From IMG/VR virus record IMGVR_UViG_3300021373_000903, positions 1 to 24,481 of that record: DNA of 24,481 bases, one strand, 5' to 3'. The translations under genes and the position numbers were made by a program. A model generated the notes under the pieces. That model made no database searches and was not told the origin of the DNA. It was given only the letters and a program-made list of their open reading frames with translations. Shown one piece after another: positions 3-17,190 of the stretch. Source of the stretch: a virus. Each line of letters starts with the position of its first letter. Positions within the stretch are counted from its first letter, which is position 1.

Positions 3-710
3 CGTGTGGTACAAGGTTTCATTGCCGCTAACATGACTGAAACCAACAAGATTGGTTACATCGCTTCGTTCCCTATTCCAGAAGTAGTGCGTGGTATTAA
101 CGCATTCATGTTGGAAGCACAGAAGCACAATCCAGATATTGAAGTAGATATCATCTGGCTTTACACCTGGTTTGATCCAGCGAAAGAAGCTACCGCAGCA
201 CAGGCACTGATTGATGAAGGTGCAGATATTATCGTACAGCATACCGACTCCCCTGCTCCAGTACAAGTGGCAGAAAACAATGGAGTATACGCATTCGGTC
301 AGGCTTCTAACATGAGCCGCTTTGGACCTAATGCACACCTGGTTTCGATTGTAGACGATTGGGATTCTTACTACGTTGACCGTGTTGGTCAAGTAATGGA
401 CGGCACCTGGACTGGTGGCGATACCTGGTGGGGATTCACTAAAGACGGTCAAGGTGGTGAAGTAGGTATGGTTGCTCTGGAAAGCTACAACGTAGCTGCT
501 ATGGGGGCAGGACTTGTACAGCAGGCACAGGCTCTCGAAGCTCAGCTTGCCAGTGGTGAACGCCATGCATTCCCGTGTGAAGGTTTGCTGAAGCAAGATG
601 GTTCTGTTCCTGAGGAGTGTGCTGCTGGTGCAGAGCACTTGGACGACTGGCCAACTCTGCTGTCCATGAACTGGTTCGTAGAAGGCATTGACGCATCAGT
701 ACCGAACTGA
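3..710 (+). CDS. BMP/PnrA-family ABC transporter substrate-binding protein, 5'-truncated
   Basis: The frame is open to the left edge, so the N-terminus (signal peptide, lipobox and roughly the first third) lies outside the window; the GTG at 6 is not a credible start. The visible 235 residues follow the basic-membrane-protein (BMP, PnrA-like) family closely: TNKIGYIASFPIPEVVRGIN, then an FDPAKE stretch, DEGADIIVQHTDSPAP, and a C-terminal segment with WFVEGI. Family members are periplasmic lipoproteins that bind purine nucleosides or related ligands for an ABC importer. No permease or ATPase gene is visible, so the protein would have to work with the host transporter, as phage PstS proteins are thought to do. 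Base composition matches the phage genes downstream. It may be a host-derived auxiliary metabolic gene. The family call is firm; the ligand is not known. Confidence 0.85.
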   Translation, partial: RVVQGFIAANMTETNKIGYIASFPIPEVVRGINAFMLEAQKHNPDIEVDIIWLYTWFDPAKEATAAQALIDEGADIIVQHTDSPAPVQVAENNGVYAFGQASNMSRFGPNAHLVSIVDDWDSYYVDRVGQVMDGTWTGGDTWWGFTKDGQGGEVGMVALESYNVAAMGAGLVQQAQALEAQLASGERHAFPCEGLLKQDGSVPEECAAGAEHLDDWPTLLSMNWFVEGIDASVPN

Positions 711-2812: not shown

Positions 2813-3301
2813 CTAGTTAGCTAGCGGGTTATCCAGCGCTTCCTGAATCTTAGCCATTAGCCGTTCTTCTAATTGTTCTATTTCTCTATCTGTATCACGG
2901 TAGAGCTGATCGCGCTTGTTATCAAACCTCTGATCTGCAATATCAATCATCTCTCTGACCTCAGTCTCAGCTTCTCTTACAGCATCTTCAATACGATCAA
3001 CCATCAGCTCTAGGCGAGCAACATCATCTTTTAAATCATTCTTAATGTTTCTAGTATACTCTGTTGCTTGTAGTACTGACTCTTCAGTCCGCTGCATCTT
3101 TTGTTCCATGACAGATAGCTGTTCTTGGAACCCGCTGAGATCAGGAGCCACGTATGAGGTGATCATCTCCTTCATGTCCATGTAGTCCTTATAGACTTCA
3201 AAGCCACCATAGAGACCACCTACGAGAGTGGACAGACCCATAGCCACAGCTACCATCTTACCACCTTTGAACTTGATCCCAGCGAATTCTATCTCAGCCA
3301 T
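2813..3301 (-). CDS. membrane-anchored coiled-coil protein
   Basis: Starts at ATG 3301, 6 nt after AAGGA. The 162-residue product has one hydrophobic span at about residues 13-35 (MVAVAMGLSTLVGGLYGGF). A long heptad-rich region follows (from about residue 55: SVMEQKMQRTEESVLQATEY, then repeated E/R/L segments to LEERLMAKIQEAL), strongly predicting a parallel coiled coil that carries most of the protein. This layout suits a spanin-like or structural tether, or a membrane-bound scaffold. There is no lipobox or cleavable signal. It lies among other small membrane proteins in the late cluster. Function not assigned. Confidence 0.8.
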   Translation of the reverse strand: MAEIEFAGIKFKGGKMVAVAMGLSTLVGGLYGGFEVYKDYMDMKEMITSYVAPDLSGFQEQLSVMEQKMQRTEESVLQATEYTRNIKNDLKDDVARLELMVDRIEDAVREAETEVREMIDIADQRFDNKRDQLYRDTDREIEQLEERLMAKIQEALDNPLAN

Positions 3302-3414: not shown

Positions 3415-3741
3415 TTACTTCTTCATCCCTTCTAAACCTTCCTTTGCATAGAATGCAGCTACAATAGCAGCAACCGATACAAAGTACGTTGGAGCAATAT
3501 CTTTCAGTAGACCGGAAGCTGTTTCCTGTCCAATGAGAGACGCGATAACAATGGCAAAAGGATAGAGTAACATACCAAAGAGAGCGAACCACGCCATCCC
3601 TCTCTGAGCATCCTGCTTCTTATCATCGTTTTCGATTTGAAGCATTCGTTCAGCTTTTGCCATTTCTTCGTCCGTTACGATTCCATCTCCGTCCTCGTCG
3701 AACTGATTATATATGGAATCCGCTTGTAGGGTTTTAGCCAC
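3415..3741 (-). CDS. EF-hand calcium-binding membrane protein
   Basis: The start is GTG 3741, 5 nt after GGAGG, overlapping the end of the upstream gene. Residues 15-26 (DEDGDGIVTDEE) are a textbook 12-residue EF-hand loop: Asp at 1, 3 and 5, Gly at 6, Ile at 8 and Glu at 12. Two hydrophobic spans follow, about residues 50-72 (WFALFGMLLYPFAIVIASLI) and 82-102, then a short charged tail. Only one EF hand is present, so Ca2+ binding would need dimerisation or may be weak. Seawater is rich in calcium, so a periplasmic or extracellular sensor or stabiliser is conceivable, but the role is unknown. Confidence 0.85.
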   Translation of the reverse strand: MAKTLQADSIYNQFDEDGDGIVTDEEMAKAERMLQIENDDKKQDAQRGMAWFALFGMLLYPFAIVIASLIGQETASGLLKDIAPTYFVSVAAIVAAFYAKEGLEGMKK

Positions 3742-3976
3742 CTAAACCTCCTACACTTTCGAATGCTGATGTAAGTTGCGGTGCAAAGGAGGATGCTGCC
3801 CAGAGCATAGCACCGATAGCACCTACACCGATAATTACCCACTTCATCTTCATGTCATCTACAGACATACGAATACCAATTAACTCATTGCTAAGAATAC
3901 GCAGAGACAGTTCCATCTTGCCTTCTGGCATATCGATTGGAACCTGAGGTTCATTTTTCTTTTGCTCTTCAGCCAT
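3734..3976 (-). CDS. 80-residue membrane protein
   Basis: Starts at ATG 3976, overlapping the stop of the nuclease gene by one base, behind AAGGA. The N-terminal half is soluble and charged (AEEQKKNEPQVPIDMPEGK), followed by a short amphipathic helix. There is one membrane span at about residues 46-64 (WVIIGVGAIGAMLWAASSF) and a Gly-rich tail (SVGGLGG). Its end overlaps the start of the EF-hand protein by 8 nt, indicating translational coupling and perhaps a shared complex. No family recognised. Confidence 0.8.
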   Translation of the reverse strand: MAEEQKKNEPQVPIDMPEGKMELSLRILSNELIGIRMSVDDMKMKWVIIGVGAIGAMLWAASSFAPQLTSAFESVGGLGG

Positions 3977-4434
3977 TACTTTAATCCTTCATCTAAGATA
4001 TCTTCTAAAATAACAACACCTTTTGCTACCAATCTTTCTCTATTGGAAAGGTGTAAAGCGTGAATATCATCCTTACTTTGGCCATGATACGGTACCGCAT
4101 GGCCTTCATCAATCATAATTTCAGTCAGCAGCTTCTTGTCATGACCTATATAAAAGTCACCAAGAATTCTACCAAACTTACCTTTCATATCTTCTCCGTC
4201 CTTGGCAGCAAATGTCTTGAGAACCACGTTTTCACCCAGTAACTCAATGACGCGGTTTTTAGCTGCAAGGCCGAATAACTTTTCGACTTTGTCAGATGTT
4301 CTAGATTCTGGTGTGTCGATGCCCATGATGCGAACACGCTCATCCTTTAACCATACTCCGAATCCTAAATCAATGTCGACGTCAACGGTATCACCGTCAA
4401 CAACCTTAACTAAATTCGCTTTATACTCGTACAC
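3976..4434 (-). CDS. staphylococcal-nuclease-type (thermonuclease) protein
   Basis: The start is GTG 4434, with AGGAG 9 nt upstream. The 152-residue product is a full SNase domain. It has DGDT at 13-16, an acidic stretch to Asp20/Asp22, ERVRIMGIDTPES at 32-44 with the catalytic-type Arg35, metal-site Asp40 and Glu43, and GKFGRILG near 85-92 supplying the second Arg. SNases are Ca2+-dependent phosphodiesterases cleaving DNA and RNA. There is no signal peptide, unlike the exported genes upstream, so it probably acts in the cytoplasm or in the virion. Its place in a late cluster makes host-DNA scavenging only one option. Confidence 0.9.
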   Translation of the reverse strand: MYEYKANLVKVVDGDTVDVDIDLGFGVWLKDERVRIMGIDTPESRTSDKVEKLFGLAAKNRVIELLGENVVLKTFAAKDGEDMKGKFGRILGDFYIGHDKKLLTEIMIDEGHAVPYHGQSKDDIHALHLSNRERLVAKGVVILEDILDEGLK

Positions 4435-4446
4435 TGTTTGTTTCTC

Positions 4447-4875
4447 CTATTGGAACTGTAATGCCCGAAGTTGTTGTATCTCTTGTTCAAGTCGCATCAC
4501 TTCCAACTGTTTCTTACGCAGTTCGAGTAAATATAGTTCATTGCAATCAATTCTAGCTTTTGGCTTTTGACCTAAAGGAATGATAATTCTAGCAAAGACG
4601 CCAACGTCTCCGACGCGCGAATCAACATAACCACTAAGGGGATCAGTATATCCCCTGCCAATAATGCCGGTTACCCCAAACTCTAAGTTGGTAGCAGAAC
4701 CAATTGCATTAGAACAATCTAGATCACCCGCCTTGAACCTATCTGACTGGTATGAACCAGGTGCAGTAGGCAAGGATAGGTTTAAAGAGCTAGACTGTCC
4801 AAATGCAACAGAGGCATATAGTAGTAACATTATAAGAATTATGAGGAATACTTGAAATTTGGAGTAACTAATCAT
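4447..4875 (-). CDS. exported protein with C-terminal coiled coil
   Basis: Two in-frame ATGs occur (4881 and 4875). The second is preferred because AAGG lies 10 nt before it and only 4 nt before the first. A clear signal peptide (SKFQVFLIILIMLLLYASVAFG, cleaved near QSSS) leads a roughly 120-residue mature protein with two Cys (LDCSNAIG, IDCNELYL), a Gly-rich beta-like middle (GVTGIIGRGY) and a C-terminal helix with heptads (RKKQLEVMRLEQEIQQLRAL). It sits directly downstream of two other exported proteins. It could be an assembly partner or periplasmic tether; no family recognised. Confidence 0.75.
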   Translation of the reverse strand: MISYSKFQVFLIILIMLLLYASVAFGQSSSLNLSLPTAPGSYQSDRFKAGDLDCSNAIGSATNLEFGVTGIIGRGYTDPLSGYVDSRVGDVGVFARIIIPLGQKPKARIDCNELYLLELRKKQLEVMRLEQEIQQLRALQFQ

Positions 4876-4880
4876 AATCA

Positions 4881-5255
4881 TTATACCTTAGAACAGATTC
4901 TAGACTCTACGCCAGACACTGGAGCATTCAACTCGAACTGCTTGGAGGTAGTACAGATGTATTCAATGCGGTCGCAGTCTGCTTCTCTGATGTAAATTTC
5001 TACAGACTCTTGACCTAAGTAACCGACGTTGATAAGCTTTTGAGTTGTTGCAAACGGGACTGTGTTCCATTCCTCGTCATAGACTGCAATCTCATAGTAC
5101 TCAACGTCTTTTCTTTTATTGAAAATCTTCATAGTGGTCACGACGATACCATCCATGAACGATGGTTCGAACTTGGGATACGTTGGTGTCCACTCATGAG
5201 CATATGCGGTAGTGGCCATCAAGGCTGCCACTACCGATGTTAATAAAGTCTTCAT
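4881..5255 (-). CDS. exported Ig-like, pilus-chaperone-like protein
   Basis: The start is ATG 5255, overlapping the stop of the pilin-like gene (TAATG), because the signal peptide MKTLLTSVVAALMATTAYA begins there; a start at 5270 would only add five residues. The mature part (about 105 residues, from HEWTPTYPKFEP) reads as alternating beta strands. The pattern of a proline-rich first strand, FNKRKDVEYYEIAVYDEEWN and an EIYIREAD strand resembles the N-terminal domain of PapD/FimC-type chaperones, but only one domain is present. Three Cys occur late in the chain. The chaperone idea is a weak fold-level inference strengthened by the neighbouring pilin-like protein. Confidence 0.75.
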   Translation of the reverse strand: MKTLLTSVVAALMATTAYAHEWTPTYPKFEPSFMDGIVVTTMKIFNKRKDVEYYEIAVYDEEWNTVPFATTQKLINVGYLGQESVEIYIREADCDRIEYICTTSKQFELNAPVSGVESRICSKV

Positions 5256-5752
5256 TAGCTGGCGATGCACTCCGCTACTACGTTAGCAGCATATTCGCCA
5301 CCAGGGAAAGACTTGCCATAACCATAGTCTACGGAAGATTCAATCTGGAACCAAGTAGAACCAGCAACAGTTAAGTCGTATTCTGTCACGTTGTCGTACT
5401 CGACCTTAGCTGCTTCATAGCCAGCCATTCCAGTATCAGATGTTTGCGATACAGTTACCTCACCATCCCACGCAAGTGCATCATCAAGTGTTGGTGATGT
5501 TGCAAAAGAGTTAGGCCAGGAAATTTTGGCAATGTAGTAGTCTGCAGCAGTAACGTCAAAACGTACCACTGGATCTACGCCACCTTTAACAGGATCTGTA
5601 TCTAATTGGTCTGGAGCTGGGTTTCCGTATACGCCTGCTACGGAAGTGTAGATGGAGCACTTAGAAGCCACGTTTCCCGTGATTGGGACGCTTTCAGCAT
5701 TAGCCGTAGTACCTACGACTGCAACTGCGAGCGCTGCAAAAAGTCTTAACAT
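5255..5752 (-). CDS. exported pilin-like beta-sandwich protein
   Basis: Starts at ATG 5752 behind GGAGA. A signal peptide (MLRLFAALAVAVVGTTANA, cleaved before ESVP) precedes about 146 residues beginning VPITGNVASKCSIYTSVAGV. The early Cys (CSIYT) and the final Cys (AECIAS) could form the disulphide seen in chaperone-usher and spore-coat-U-type pilins, and the protein has the size and beta-rich composition of those families. No usher gene is visible. The product would be exported to the periplasm, perhaps to the surface. The pilin comparison is inferred; homologues with this N-terminal pattern seem familiar from marine myoviruses, but I could not check. Confidence 0.75.
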   Translation of the reverse strand: MLRLFAALAVAVVGTTANAESVPITGNVASKCSIYTSVAGVYGNPAPDQLDTDPVKGGVDPVVRFDVTAADYYIAKISWPNSFATSPTLDDALAWDGEVTVSQTSDTGMAGYEAAKVEYDNVTEYDLTVAGSTWFQIESSVDYGYGKSFPGGEYAANVVAECIAS

Positions 5753-5755
5753 TTG

Positions 5756-6676
5756 TTATTCTCCGGTTAATTGTTCTCTATCATATTGAGAGCGTACCAT
5801 AGAATAATGTTTGGCATCACTAGCCAACTGTCTCAGCGCCCTGTTATTATCAGGCAATGATGTATCTTCAAGTTGCAGAGTATCCTCATATACTAATACT
5901 TCAGGATAGTCTACTTCATAATATGGTTGAATTAGAGGATCGTTTGCAAGCTGTTGTAATAATCCCTGTTGAATAAATCCATCGATGAATCCACCAACGT
6001 CAGGATCAGTCTGCATACTCTTTTCTAAATCTTCCTCTTCATCTTCGACGATTTCTACTTTTTCGTTTTCGTTTTCAATTTGTCTGCCCTCTTGCATCTC
6101 TAACCAGTATTCATAGAACTCATCTTCTGGATCGACATACTCGATGGTGCTTACATATTTATAAACAGCGTCCAAAAAACCTGGACAATTTGGATCAGCT
6201 AAGGGGTTGGTGCATATAATATTTGTTTCATCAATATCCATTCTGTAAAGGTATATAACAGATGCATCACTAACCGTTCCATCACCGTCTACAGTGATAG
6301 AACCATCGCCCCATTGCTCTCCAGGAATACCATCGAATCTAAAATTCTTTAGAATCGAGTTACCAGGCAAACCAGACCAGTCATCAACTTCTTCAAAAAC
6401 GTATCCACCATTTATAGCATCTTCGTTTCTGACATATACGGTAGCATCAGCCGCTGGGTCCTTAGACATAACATAATAGTATGTTACGCCATTGACCTGC
6501 AATGATACGTTGGGTGATGAAAAATCTGGTAGAACATTTACGGGTGACCAGGTTAATCCGTCATTGACTGCGTTATTAGTAACTCCGTAGGTGGTATCAG
6601 CCTCCGCCGAGTAAGACGGCAAGAATACCGAGAACGAGAGCGCCACCGATAAGAGTGGTCCTAGTGTCCGGATCAA
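5756..6676 (-). CDS. acidic exported protein, TTG start
   Basis: The start is TTG 6676, 7 nt after AGGA, and produces a good signal peptide (MIRTLGPLLSVALSFSVFLP, cleaved near SAEA). This makes the first 80 nt overlap the end of the upstream gene. The mature protein is about 280 residues and very acidic. An N-terminal beta-rich half (LQVNGVTYYYVMSKDP, SVIYLYRMDIDETNIICTN) with a Cys pair is followed by an extremely charged Glu/Asp helix near residues 195-225 and a C-terminal helical tail. It resembles no family I recognise. It lies directly upstream of the pilin-like gene, in the same transcription unit. Confidence 0.75.
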   Translation of the reverse strand: MIRTLGPLLSVALSFSVFLPSYSAEADTTYGVTNNAVNDGLTWSPVNVLPDFSSPNVSLQVNGVTYYYVMSKDPAADATVYVRNEDAINGGYVFEEVDDWSGLPGNSILKNFRFDGIPGEQWGDGSITVDGDGTVSDASVIYLYRMDIDETNIICTNPLADPNCPGFLDAVYKYVSTIEYVDPEDEFYEYWLEMQEGRQIENENEKVEIVEDEEEDLEKSMQTDPDVGGFIDGFIQQGLLQQLANDPLIQPYYEVDYPEVLVYEDTLQLEDTSLPDNNRALRQLASDAKHYSMVRSQYDREQLTGE

Positions 6677-7187
6677 TGTTCATTCCTATACCTGGTTGAG
6701 AATCGGGTCTGCGTGACTGGTTGGACGGATCGTTCCATTCTGACTTTGCTTCTTCACCGATCTTACCGTCGATAGGGCAAGGTGTACCTGCGTCCATCAT
6801 GGCCTGAAAGATTCTGCCATCTTGACACATAACTGATACGGCAGCAACTTTCATACCCATATCGTATAGAGTCTTGGCGTTCTTTAGCTTCTCACAGTTC
6901 ATGTCTCTGACAGTAGATCCTGCCGAGATCCCCAGGATCTGCGTCTGTACAGCACCTGATACGCCGACCGTACACAGGTCAGAGTTTGCTGTATTGATGT
7001 TAGGAGAGATTGCCGTAGGAGGTGCAGTGATGACTGTGTTGGTCGAGTCACTGGTTGTCGTTACGGTACTTGTTGTGGTATTCTCTGTGACAATGGGATC
7101 ATTTGTCGTGGTCGTGGTCTCTTCCTGAGCCACCGCTGCTGAAGCCGCCAGTGTCATGATAAAAGCAGCAAACATTCTTTTGAACAT
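6597..7187 (-). CDS. Thr-rich exported protein with C-terminal membrane anchor
   Basis: First gene of the minus-strand late cluster: ATG 7187, AAGGG 9 nt upstream, TATAAATA 30 nt further up. A signal peptide (MFKRMFAAFIMTLAASAAVA) is followed by a low-complexity Thr/Ser/Asn linker (residues about 22-65), perhaps an extended stalk. Next comes a compact domain with four Cys (SDLCTVGVSGAVQT, MNCEKLKNAKTLYDMG, VMCQDGRIFQAMM, AGTPCPIDGKIG), suited to two disulphides. The last 20 residues (LIGGALVLGILAVLLGGG) form a membrane anchor. It may sit in the inner membrane facing the periplasm. I recall this Cys domain from other marine T4-like phages, but its role is unknown. Confidence 0.8.
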   Translation of the reverse strand: MFKRMFAAFIMTLAASAAVAQEETTTTTNDPIVTENTTTSTVTTTSDSTNTVITAPPTAISPNINTANSDLCTVGVSGAVQTQILGISAGSTVRDMNCEKLKNAKTLYDMGMKVAAVSVMCQDGRIFQAMMDAGTPCPIDGKIGEEAKSEWNDPSNQSRRPDSQPGIGMNIDPDTRTTLIGGALVLGILAVLLGGG

Positions 7188-7216: not shown

Positions 7217-7224
7217 TATTTATA
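7217..7224 (-). promoter_or_regulatory. T4-type late promoter TATAAATA (minus strand)
   Basis: The plus strand reads TATTTATA; the minus strand is an exact TATAAATA 30 nt before the ATG at 7187. It is the obvious promoter for the long minus-strand cluster and lies back to back with a likely sigma70-type early promoter for uvsX. Confidence 0.75.
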
Positions 7225-10872: not shown

Positions 10873-11048
10873 TGGATAAACGTAAAGAAGCAGCTAGGTT
10901 ATTCTGGATGGTTAAAGGTTACTTGATGCCTGAGCACTTCACGGATAGTGACATTGAATATATACTAACAAGCTACACAAAAAGAGTGTGGCATAATCAT
11001 GAAGTGAATGATGAAGGCTTTGAAGAGGCCTGGGAGAATAGAGAATGA
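10872..11048 (+). CDS. 58-residue hypothetical protein
   Basis: ATG 10872 shares a base with the previous stop, and the TGA at 11046-11048 overlaps the kdsA start by 4 nt (ATGA), so the frame bridges two genes exactly. The product begins MDKRKEAARLFWMVKGYLMP, is helical and charged, ends in acidic residues (EEAWENRE) and contains Trp and His in a WHNHEV stretch. No motif recognised. Confidence 0.7.
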   Translation: MDKRKEAARLFWMVKGYLMPEHFTDSDIEYILTSYTKRVWHNHEVNDEGFEEAWENRE

Positions 11049-11809
11049 AGATCATTGCCGGCCCATGCCAGCTGGAAAGAAACTCACTAGGCGTGGCAAG
11101 ATACTGTCAGAACATGGCAGAAAAATACGGTTTAGAATATTACTTTAAGGCAAGTTTCGATAAAGCCAATCGTACATCAATGGGTGCAGAGCGGGGCGTA
11201 GGACTAGAATCTGCCATGATTATCTTTGATGAGATTAAGGCGGAACTTGGATGTAAGATCGTAACCGATATACATACTACAGGTCAGGCAGCTCTGATCA
11301 AGAGTTCTGTCGACGTACTACAAATCCCTGCTTTCCTGTGCAGGCAGACCGACCTATTACTGGCAGCAAAGAACACTGGAAAGATCGTAAACGTAAAAAA
11401 GGGTCAGTTCCTAGCACCGTGGGACGTTGCAGGAATTATCAGCAAGATTGGAGAAAACAATGTCTGGATTACTGAAAGGGGCACTAGCTTTGGCTATAAC
11501 ACCCTTGTTAATGACTTTACTGGTCTTCAGTACATTGCTGAGAATTATAGTACTCCCCTTATTTTTGATGCCACTCATAGCGTTCAGAAACCCGGTGGCC
11601 TCGGCGGTTCTTCTGGTGGTAATCGTAACTATGTATCTGCTTTGGTACGTGCCGCTGTTGCAACTAAGAATGTAGATGGCATCTTCGTTGAGGTTCATCC
11701 TGATCCTGACAACGCACCATCCGACGGACCAAACAGCTTAAACCTTCCACAATTTGAAATGGTATGCAGAGACATTCGTACTCTGTGTGATGCACTGGGG
11801 ATTGACTAA
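11045..11809 (+). CDS. kdsA: 3-deoxy-8-phosphooctulonate (Kdo-8-P) synthase KdsA
   Basis: Catalyses condensation of arabinose-5-phosphate and phosphoenolpyruvate to Kdo-8-phosphate, the committed step towards the LPS inner-core sugar Kdo. The 254-residue chain carries the family landmarks in order: AGPCQLE (5-11), FKASFDKANRTS, LQIPAFLCRQTDLL, VNVKKGQFLAPWDV, ERGTSFGYNTLV, DATHSVQKPGG and VHPDPDNAPSDGPN. The Cys in AGPC and the acidic residues of the metal site are consistent with a working enzyme. It is slightly shorter than the about 280 residues of bacterial KdsA. ATGA overlap with the preceding ORF and TAATG overlap with kdsB show one translationally coupled unit. Confidence 0.96.
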   Translation: MKIIAGPCQLERNSLGVARYCQNMAEKYGLEYYFKASFDKANRTSMGAERGVGLESAMIIFDEIKAELGCKIVTDIHTTGQAALIKSSVDVLQIPAFLCRQTDLLLAAKNTGKIVNVKKGQFLAPWDVAGIISKIGENNVWITERGTSFGYNTLVNDFTGLQYIAENYSTPLIFDATHSVQKPGGLGGSSGGNRNYVSALVRAAVATKNVDGIFVEVHPDPDNAPSDGPNSLNLPQFEMVCRDIRTLCDALGID

Positions 11810-12633
11810 TGCGACTAAAGCCAATTATTATTATTCCTGCACGTTATAACTCTAGCCGATTCCCTGGCAAGATGCTAGAGAAGTTAGGTGACAAGACCGT
11901 ACTAGAACAGACGATCGAGACTGGTAAGCGTACTGGTCTTCCTGTCTATGTTGCTACTGATGATCGACAAATTGCAGACCTCTGTATCCGTATCAATCAA
12001 GAATACGTAATGACAAGTCCTGACCAGAAGAACGGTACGGAACGTGTAGCGGAGGCTATGGTAAAGCTGATCGATAAACACGGTGAAGAGTTTAGTAACG
12101 AGTTTGATTATGTAATTAACCTGCAAGGTGACTCTCCACTTATTCCGCATTATGTATTCAGTATGATGATGGAAGAGTATGAGCGTATGTATGCCTTTGA
12201 CAAACCATTTGATGTCATCACTCCGACATTCAGAATGAATATGGAAACTGCTGAACGGTTCTTGGATTGCCGTGCAGAAGGCAGAGCTGGTGGTACGACT
12301 GTGGTAACTGATACCGATGGAGCTGCGCTGTACTTCTCTAAAGAGATGATTCCATATGGTGCAAACCTGACTAACGTACAGTCCACGTCTTCCAAGATTC
12401 CCATGTACTATCATATCGGAATGTATGCATACAAGCCAGAAGCTTTGTTTGAATACTCTATGCTAGAGGAAAGTCCACTAGAAAAGACTGAAGGCTTGGA
12501 GCAGATTCGATTCCTGGAGAACGGTTACACAATCCATTGCATGAAGATGAATCCCTTGCACTTTGACTTTTGGGAAGTAAACAATCCTGAGGATATCGAG
12601 ATCGTTGAAAAGAGCTTGCATCATGTGAGATAG
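11809..12633 (+). CDS. kdsB: CMP-Kdo synthetase KdsB (3-deoxy-manno-octulosonate cytidylyltransferase)
   Basis: Activates Kdo with CTP to CMP-Kdo, the donor for Kdo transferases. The N-terminal nucleotide-binding segment IIIIPARYNSSRFPGKML is textbook, followed by VYVATDDRQIAD, INLQGDSPLIP and the C-terminal HIGMYAYKPEALF, SPLEKTEGLEQIRFLENG and NPEDIEIVEKSL. Two differences from host enzymes: LQGDSPLIP replaces the usual QGDEP, and the protein is 274 residues rather than about 250, with an extra stretch around residues 125-165. It may therefore use a variant sugar. It lacks a neighbouring KdsC phosphatase and KdsD isomerase, so the host would have to supply those steps. Confidence 0.95.
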   Translation: MRLKPIIIIPARYNSSRFPGKMLEKLGDKTVLEQTIETGKRTGLPVYVATDDRQIADLCIRINQEYVMTSPDQKNGTERVAEAMVKLIDKHGEEFSNEFDYVINLQGDSPLIPHYVFSMMMEEYERMYAFDKPFDVITPTFRMNMETAERFLDCRAEGRAGGTTVVTDTDGAALYFSKEMIPYGANLTNVQSTSSKIPMYYHIGMYAYKPEALFEYSMLEESPLEKTEGLEQIRFLENGYTIHCMKMNPLHFDFWEVNNPEDIEIVEKSLHHVR

Positions 12634-16554: not shown

Positions 16555-17190
16555 ATGAAATATCTTATTTCCGCAATTGTGGCTACTGTTGTAGCTGCTC
16601 CTGCAATTGCACAAGATGCTGCTGATAATGGATCCGCTCTTATGTCCAACGCAACTGTCGGCGTATCTACCGATCTGGAAGGTAACGCAGACTGGACCGT
16701 TGGTGCAGAGTTGGGTATCGCTGGATTCGGTGTAGATGCAGGTTTCACACTCAATGACCGTGGTGACAACGCTGAAGATGACTATGCAATTAGTCTCGGC
16801 TCGGGCATGGACCTTGGTTTTGCCTCCCTCGACACCAGCATCAGCTATGCATGGGGTGCAACATCCGGTGCAGACCTGATTGGTCGCGGTGACGGTAACA
16901 CCTGGGGTGATGTAACACTCAACCCAACCCTGAACATTACTCCTGGCATTATCGGCGGTGAGTATGTATGGGTAGGTGGTTCTATGGACCTCGCTTCCGA
17001 CGGCGCTATTGACGTTGGTTGGGGCGGAGCTTCCTACGGAATCGGTTATACTCATGACCTGAACGACCGCGCGTCTATCGGTGTTAGCTGGGGTTGGTCT
17101 GTTGACGTGGTTGAGGATGAACTCACCGACGTCAATGACTGGGTAACCACTGCTGACGGTATGAAAATTGGCGTAGGCTTCAAGTTCTAA
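16555..17190 (+). CDS. phage-encoded outer-membrane beta-barrel protein
   Basis: A strong ribosome site (AGAGGAA) precedes ATG 16555. A signal peptide (MKYLISAIVATVVAAPAIAQ) leads a mature protein of about 190 residues, rich in Gly, Asp and aromatic residues, with alternating strands (ATVGVSTDLEGNADWTVG, LGIAGFGVDAGFTLND, SYGIGYTHDLNDRASIGVSW). It ends in VGVGFKF: the terminal Phe is the standard BAM signal of outer-membrane proteins. The expected fold is a barrel of about 8-10 strands. It could be a porin, a receptor-blocking or superinfection-exclusion protein, or a receptor decoy. Its GC-rich, Trp-rich codon use differs a little from the Lys-rich neighbours. Confidence 0.85.
   Translation: MKYLISAIVATVVAAPAIAQDAADNGSALMSNATVGVSTDLEGNADWTVGAELGIAGFGVDAGFTLNDRGDNAEDDYAISLGSGMDLGFASLDTSISYAWGATSGADLIGRGDGNTWGDVTLNPTLNITPGIIGGEYVWVGGSMDLASDGAIDVGWGGASYGIGYTHDLNDRASIGVSWGWSVDVVEDELTDVNDWVTTADGMKIGVGFKF

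Follow-up and report, generated by a model that had tools for sequence, protein, structure and literature searches.

Chaperone-usher pili (e.g. FimC/FimA, Caf1M/Caf1 and CsuC/CsuA-B) are encoded by neighbouring genes for a chaperone with two domains and for pilus subunits, along with an usher gene. Their subunits share a Cys motif in the A strand, a Gly at position -14 and a Tyr at position -2, counted from the C-terminus. Curli (type VIII) modules are carried by pelagiphages and by the methylophage Melnitz, and roles in aggregation, uptake and lysis have been proposed for them (PMC7029224; PMC9599517; PMC9004378). Spanins (e.g. Rz/Rz1 and T1 gp11) include an inner-membrane partner with an N-terminal anchor and a coiled coil (i-spanin). 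Here these systems are compared with a cassette of six minus-strand genes, coding for five exported proteins (E1 to E5) and a membrane-anchored coiled-coil protein (g2813), in a stretch of viral DNA of 24,481 nucleotides (nt), referred to as the window, which holds the IMG/VR record IMGVR_UViG_3300021373_000903 completely.

The cassette resembles the chaperone-usher systems in that E4 is predicted to share the fold of the PapD N-domain, E3 shares the A-strand Cys motif and Gly(-14) with the subunits, and the chaperone-like and subunit-like genes are neighbours. It differs from them in having one chaperone domain instead of two and no usher gene found, in a Cys at -4 of E3 where the subunits have a Tyr at -2, in the absence of any sequence-profile match, and in its occurrence in phages, a scan of bacterial genomes with E5 being negative. 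Like the phage curli modules it is an exported multi-gene set of marine phages for which a surface-fibre or lysis role can be proposed, but its genes are different: a search of 22 records gave no CsgG, and the cassette proteins gave no match to CsgF or curlin repeats. With the spanins it shares the i-spanin-like layout of g2813, and the export signal of E2, nested in the end of the E1 gene, recalls the overlapped spanin genes (PMC6139136); in contrast to the spanins, its constant members include no outer-membrane lipoprotein. The cassette is neither an established pilus nor a curli system, but an unnamed and widespread phage set with chaperone-like and pilin-like members. Its fixed gene order, predicted export signals and late-type promoter identify it, on the strength of sequence, as a late, phage-specific envelope module of five putatively exported proteins and one putatively membrane-anchored coiled-coil protein. 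Its features, in the direction of transcription, are:

7217 to 7224, minus strand: T4-type late promoter TATAAATA, preceding the E1 start codon by 30-37 nt
6597 to 7187, minus strand: E1, 196 amino acids (aa), with a signal peptide, a Ser/Thr-rich linker, a four-Cys domain (residues ~70-140) and a C-terminal hydrophobic anchor
6597 to 6676, minus strand: dual-coded overlap, with the E1 membrane anchor in one frame and the E2 signal peptide in another
5756 to 6676, minus strand: E2, 306 aa, with a signal peptide, a TTG start at 6676, a beta-rich N-terminal half and an acidic linker
5255 to 5752, minus strand: E3, 165 aa, with the motif I-x-G-x-V-x3-C-x-I behind the signal peptide, a Gly(-14) and a Cys(-4)
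4881 to 5255, minus strand: E4, 124 aa, an exported single PapD-like immunoglobulin (Ig) domain with Cys101 and Cys121 on the last two strands
4447 to 4881, minus strand: E5, 144 aa, a small exported protein with a conserved GDVGVYARIxIPLG...DCNxLYELELRKKQLE core and a C-terminal helix-like stretch
2813 to 3301, minus strand: g2813, 162 aa, with an N-terminal inner-membrane anchor, a coiled-coil-like region and the C-terminus NPLAN

The order E1>E2>E3>E4>E5>g2813 on one strand is constant in about 110 related IMG/VR loci. A first scan with E3 as the query gave 35 viral loci, whose gene order was then checked by tblastn as far as the contigs reach. A second scan of IMG/VR with an E5 profile returned at least 600 stretches, at least 580 of them confirmed relatives, which makes the cassette a very common one. 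Profiles found the six-gene order again in the 77 new loci retained, with losses at contig ends only. An earlier inspection of the letters without database searches (the sequence-only reading) had described five consecutive minus-strand genes with signal peptides, which are indeed present as E1 to E5 (7187-4447), and had set joint conservation beforehand as a refuting test; the genes are kept together throughout the loci mentioned. The sixth constant member, g2813 (3301-2813), had been overlooked. Neighbours other than these six vary among the relatives (tblastn). The cassette is delimited here to six genes, because E1-E5 and g2813 are constant while a nuclease and two small membrane proteins occur in a minority of the loci. 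Its junctions overlap or abut: E3/E4 and E4/E5 share TAATG, and E1/E2 overlap by 80 nt. No E5 relatives were detected in 84,980 bacterial and archaeal genomes with one pattern-based profile scan, which distant relatives could escape. A literature search, with most subscription papers and preprints outside its coverage, found no description of a chaperone-usher-like pair or of such a cassette in phages, and all cassette families are annotated as 'unknown' or missing from the databases used. The cassette thus appears to be undescribed so far.

Export signals were evaluated with a heuristic that calls for an uncharged hydrophobic core followed by a small-x-small site, by which membrane anchors also count. 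It was positive in 96, 87, 95, 95 and 96% of the distinct homologues of E1, E2, E3, E4 and E5, respectively, and in 15% of 751 non-cassette open reading frames (ORFs) from the same loci. The signal peptides of E1-E5 are predicted to be of the ordinary Sec type. A lipobox was found in none of the E1, E3, E4 and g2813 homologues and was rare in E2 (4/82) and E5 (5/85). The T4 late promoter sequence, TATAAATA, occurs eight times in the window, against 1.2 expected from shuffles. It is present in 44 of 72 distinct regions upstream of E1 in the relatives, mostly 20-60 nt before the start, against 3.1% among random stretches taken from these loci. The position of one such site directly upstream of E1 bears out the label 'late' used in the sequence-only reading. 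A few relatives have apparent ordinary sigma-70 promoters instead of the late-type site, and therefore the cassette probably moves between phage types.

A late promoter is also what would be expected if the proteins were exported and then bound to particles freed at lysis, and Ig-like domains are common as virion decorations. Virion proteins of tailed phages are not known to use Sec as a rule, and two members of the cassette have membrane anchors; we consider such a decoration of virions very improbable.

The best-supported fold is that of E4. An AlphaFold2 model calculated from a 23-sequence alignment is all-beta behind the signal peptide, with a mean predicted local distance difference test (pLDDT) of 80 and a predicted template modelling score (pTM) of 0.69. 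Its top structural match is FimC (4dwh; Z 10.8, root-mean-square deviation 2.7, 97 aligned residues), followed by Caf1M (Z 10.6) and PapD (10.1), with CsuC (~10), SafB and DraB close behind, and the best Foldseek match is the chaperone FaeE (E 8e-5). MSP domains and the Ig domain of CsxA, a glycosidase, score as high as the chaperones; what is predicted is a PapD-like fold, not a function. E4 corresponds to the first chaperone domain up to its last strand, where the protein stops, and the second chaperone domain is absent. Its two Cys residues, Cys101 and Cys121, are nearly invariant and lie one on each of the last two strands, an arrangement reminiscent of the F1-G1 disulfide of Caf1M-type chaperones. 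At the level of sequence the relation is silent: neither E4 nor its Vibrio homologues gave any Pfam match at E up to 1, the periplasmic pilus chaperone profiles PF00345 and PF02753 included, the alignment of E4 with seven E. coli chaperone N-domains (hhalign without signal peptides) was not significant, and nothing significant was found with the E4 profile among PDB sequences.

E3 is linked to pilins mainly by motif. Its two Cys residues are Cys32 and Cys162, and the latter, at -4, is present in 84/84 homologues. The pattern hydrophobic-x-G-x-hydrophobic-x3-C-x-hydrophobic and Gly(-14) both occur in 81/81 homologues, and the same motif, with three or four residues before the Cys, together with Gly(-14) in 12 of the 14 E. 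coli K-12 pilus subunits compared. In the background of 1053 unrelated ORFs from the loci, the motif occurs in 4, the Gly in 51 and the two together in a single ORF, which is a Vibrio phage E3 homologue. The motif was picked after inspection of both families and hence lends support without being a blind test; the E3 homologues of T5-like Vibrio phages and the E3-like proteins of Vibrio phage D81 and Klebsiella phage FBKp24 keep the Gly but not the motif. The AlphaFold model of E3 (pLDDT 79.7, pTM 0.73) is largely beta, with residues 1-21 unordered. Foldseek placed the PapG pilin domain (E 2.9e-3), FimG (1.1e-2) and CfaB (1.9e-2) amid other Ig-like matches, none of them below 1e-3; the best VIA match is an MSCRAMM (Z 7.2), and BFVD gave one marginal match, an uncharacterised phage protein. 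The E3 profile found nothing significant among PDB sequences, and a comparison of E3 with E. coli pilins (hhalign without signal peptides) gave no signal either. A pilin nature of E3 is accordingly supported by its motifs, the fold match being weak. The prediction of a small pilin with a terminal Cys pair, made from the letters, stands as regards the Cys pair and the motif and is less secure as regards the fold, whereas the Ig-type chaperone domain predicted for E4 agrees strongly with the modelled structure. Folds unrelated to pilin or chaperone, the other refuting outcome set in the sequence-only reading, did not emerge: E4 fits a chaperone domain and the model of E3 is compatible with a pilin.

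The absence of an usher and of CsgG noted in the sequence-only reading holds at Pfam sensitivity. The usher profile PF00577 matched in none of 20 records, which comprise 4 complete phage genomes with E3-E5-type genes and 16 possible fragments (E. coli control positive), and the CsgG profile PF03783 in none of 22 records (controls positive in 4 genomes). Curlin repeats, likewise reported as not visible, and CsgF were not matched by Pfam (E up to 1) in E1-E5 or the scanned neighbours. A protein of 790-860 aa preceding E3 in the Vibrio phages was considered as an usher on account of its size and rejected: it has no signal peptide, is tail-like (phrog_10818) and does not match the usher profile. 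A reading of E1 as CsgF, prompted by a shared 'QxQILG' string, was dropped as well for lack of a Pfam match.

These results bear on the possibility of a true fibre, in which E3 would polymerize by donor-strand exchange with E4 as its chaperone and, by way of a host pore or one not recognised so far, form a thin pilus or a capsule-like layer that perhaps holds cells together as in the 'sibling capture' idea for phage curli. The A-strand motif and Gly(-14) of E3 and the PapD fold of E4 speak for it, as do the curli known from marine phages (PMC7029224; PMC9599517) and a small barrel-like exported protein that 18 of 73 non-redundant loci encode roughly 0.4 kb upstream of E1. The missing usher and CsgG, the lack of a second chaperone domain in E4 and the lack of a clear pilin match for the predicted fold of E3 stand against it, and a fibre seems unlikely to us. 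The earlier proposal of a phage-made envelope structure is reasonable in its general form; its pilus nature is unproven, with no usher or CsgG, one chaperone domain and no profile link.

E1 matches phrog_20531 (E 4e-15). As proposed from the letters, it combines a Thr-rich stalk (Ser and Thr make up a mean of 38% of residues 21-65), a Cys domain (four Cys) and a membrane anchor (hydrophobic, C-terminal). The Cys domain recurs in pelagiphages at 50-56% identity and, more weakly, in roseophages and one N4-like phage. E2 has a conserved C-terminal PDNxRALR...SQY motif and no family in PHROG or Pfam searches. Its start lies inside E1 in all 92 loci in which both starts could be placed, with an overlap of 62-83 nt that is always 2 modulo 3, and this constancy of frame supports the TTG start at 6676. 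A relation between E1 and E5 was rejected, since hhalign aligned the signal-peptide end alone. The g2813 family ends in NPLx; its PHROG match to Rz-like proteins is weak (E 0.56), and the anchor and coiled-coil layout fits an i-spanin.

Parts of the cassette occur separately in other phages. The pelagiphages HTVC023P (gp45-gp48), HTVC115P, Baldr and Mosig have a trio without E3-E5, consisting of an E1-type protein, a large exported protein that contains an acidic linker, and a membrane coiled coil with a C-terminal NPLx. The second of these is much larger than E2 and resembles it in its C-terminus by eye only; such E2 relatives contain adhesin-like, beta-rich regions. In HTVC115P a g2813-related protein follows the E1 and E2 types. 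Conversely, the Vibrio phages pVp-1, Ceto and 252E42.2 have homologues of E3, E4 and E5 in this order (phrog_25895 - phrog_25455 - phrog_37374) without E1 and E2, followed by a small lipoprotein gene; aligned with hhalign without signal peptides, they match E3 at E 5e-7, E4 at 5e-7 and E5 at 6e-11. The cassette of the window apparently joins these two sub-modules, E1-E2-coiled coil and E3-E4-E5. In the Klebsiella jumbo phage FBKp24 (L044 5628-6939) an E5-like gene (E 3e-4) lies beside an E4-sized and an E3-like exported gene. By eye the two neighbours are alike to E4 and E3, the E3-like one with Gly at -14, but the profiles give no support and they are considered a lead only.

In several lineages the neighbours are lysis genes. 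In pVp-1 and Ceto the triad has tail-like genes on one side and genes annotated as holin and endolysin on the other; in 252E42.2 the genes after it code for a membrane protein and a lysozyme-like protein, and in HTVC023P an M15 peptidase comes directly after the trio. Near the full cassette, a SleB-type cell-wall hydrolase (Hydrolase_2) is encoded, mostly upstream, in 17 of the 73 loci, and in 6 of 8 records having one it lies 1.5-2.6 kb upstream of E1. A class 3 lipase (PF01764) is found directly downstream of or beside the g2813 homologue in 10 loci (e.g. L090 4243-4962), and 27 loci have a holin-sized EF-hand membrane protein within the cassette or close to it. Judged by the neighbourhood in other phages, lysis is at least as likely as a surface appendage.

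We therefore favour, tentatively and somewhat short of an even chance, a late envelope-spanning complex that helps to breach the outer envelope. In such a complex E4 would serve as a PapD-type chaperone of one domain, holding E3 in soluble form in the periplasm, and E3, as a pilin-like incomplete Ig subunit, would be handed over in the manner of donor-strand exchange without an usher, as folds and motifs suggest. From their topology, E1 and g2813 may fix the assembly to the inner membrane, and its periplasmic or outer part may be formed by E2, E3 and E5. Acting at the cell boundary at the end of infection, the assembly would most likely assist release by helping to open or weaken the outer envelope, either in place of spanins or besides them; for this step the gene neighbours are the guide. 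A further reading takes the cassette for a virus-specific descendant or analogue of the chaperone-usher pathway that works without an usher. Its single-domain chaperone would load the pilin-like subunit into a machine of E1, E2, E5 and g2813 spanning the envelope, and this machine would breach or seal the outer membrane when infection ends. We regard this reading as rather doubtful. If true, it would represent a new class of machinery for phage exit or for the envelope, one that is common in the ocean.

Several observations weigh against an envelope-breaching complex. In 2 of the 8 records with a Hydrolase_2 gene this lies 25-30 kb away, the triad of Vibrio phage D81 has no annotated lysis neighbour, and the window, itself a fragment, contains no recognised endolysin or holin. 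No cassette protein is consistently a lipoprotein, so that the set is not a standard spanin pair, and a unispanin is not indicated either: E1 has a C-terminal anchor, but a lipobox in 0/78 homologues. A surface role, too, would be in keeping with the Ser/Thr-rich stalk and with the adhesin-like E2 proteins of pelagiphages.

Such a role is the substance of the main rival explanation, surface masking or superinfection exclusion, by which a late exported complex on or under the outer membrane hides or jams the phage receptor; progeny would thereby escape loss on debris, and rival phages would be kept out. T5 Llp, for example, masks the phage receptor. In its favour, all members of the cassette are exported or membrane-anchored, and the stalk of E1 and the adhesin-like, beta-rich E2 relatives of pelagiphages fit it. 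The Vibrio E3-E4-E5 genes directly follow large tail-like genes, and Kdo (3-deoxy-D-manno-octulosonic acid) pathway genes in the window could alter lipopolysaccharide (LPS). Exclusion factors, however, are usually single small proteins, whereas here six stand behind a late promoter. A relation of E4 to Llp was rejected and not used, the match (E 0.13, partly over the signal peptide) not being significant. Altogether we hold masking to be possible, though improbable rather than probable.

The holin-sized EF-hand membrane protein adjoining the cassette, as well as the late promoter, would also be in line with a periplasmic lysis-timing device, similar to an antiholin or to lysis inhibition, which senses the state of the envelope or superinfection and controls the holin. 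A periplasmic antiholin is known in T4, namely RI. Known antiholins consist of one or two small proteins and the family searches revealed no resemblance to RI; lysis timing is in our view quite unlikely.

Should the cassette serve lysis, it would hint at a way in which the outer membrane could be opened by marine phages that have no recognised spanins. Donor-strand assistance between E3 and E4, if that is how the pair works, would mean that phages use this chemistry at the host envelope free of an usher. The related sets in cultured Vibrio phages and pelagiphages offer genetic handles for laboratory tests.

Three accessory genes adjoin the cassette, between g2813 and E5:

3976 to 4434, minus strand: staphylococcal-nuclease-like protein (PF00565), beside the cassette in 24/73 loci
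3734 to 3976, minus strand: small membrane protein, in 23/73 loci
3415 to 3741, minus strand: EF-hand-like, transmembrane protein of holin size, in 27/73 loci

The window is assigned to a T4-like phage, of which it is a fragment, because family searches identified genes for a UvsX-like recombinase, a DnaB-like helicase, ThyX, a DUF6267 protein and a phage cytidyltransferase; its relatives are from marine-type contigs. At its edge (6-710, plus strand) lies a partial gene for a Bmp/PnrA-like substrate-binding protein of an ATP-binding cassette (ABC) transporter (PF02608). It is a host-type gene carried by the phage, because two related phage contigs have it (L001, 91%; L019, 81%), and a chimeric contig, which this gene had led us to suspect, was rejected on the same grounds. 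The Kdo genes mentioned above are neighbouring KdsA-like and CMP-Kdo-synthetase-like genes (11045-12633, plus strand; PF00793 and PF02348), a pair that suggests that the phage may alter the LPS of its host. Finally, an exported outer-membrane-barrel-like protein with the C-terminus GFKF is encoded at 16555-17190 on the plus strand and belongs to a family different from that of the barrel-like protein found upstream of E1 in the relatives.

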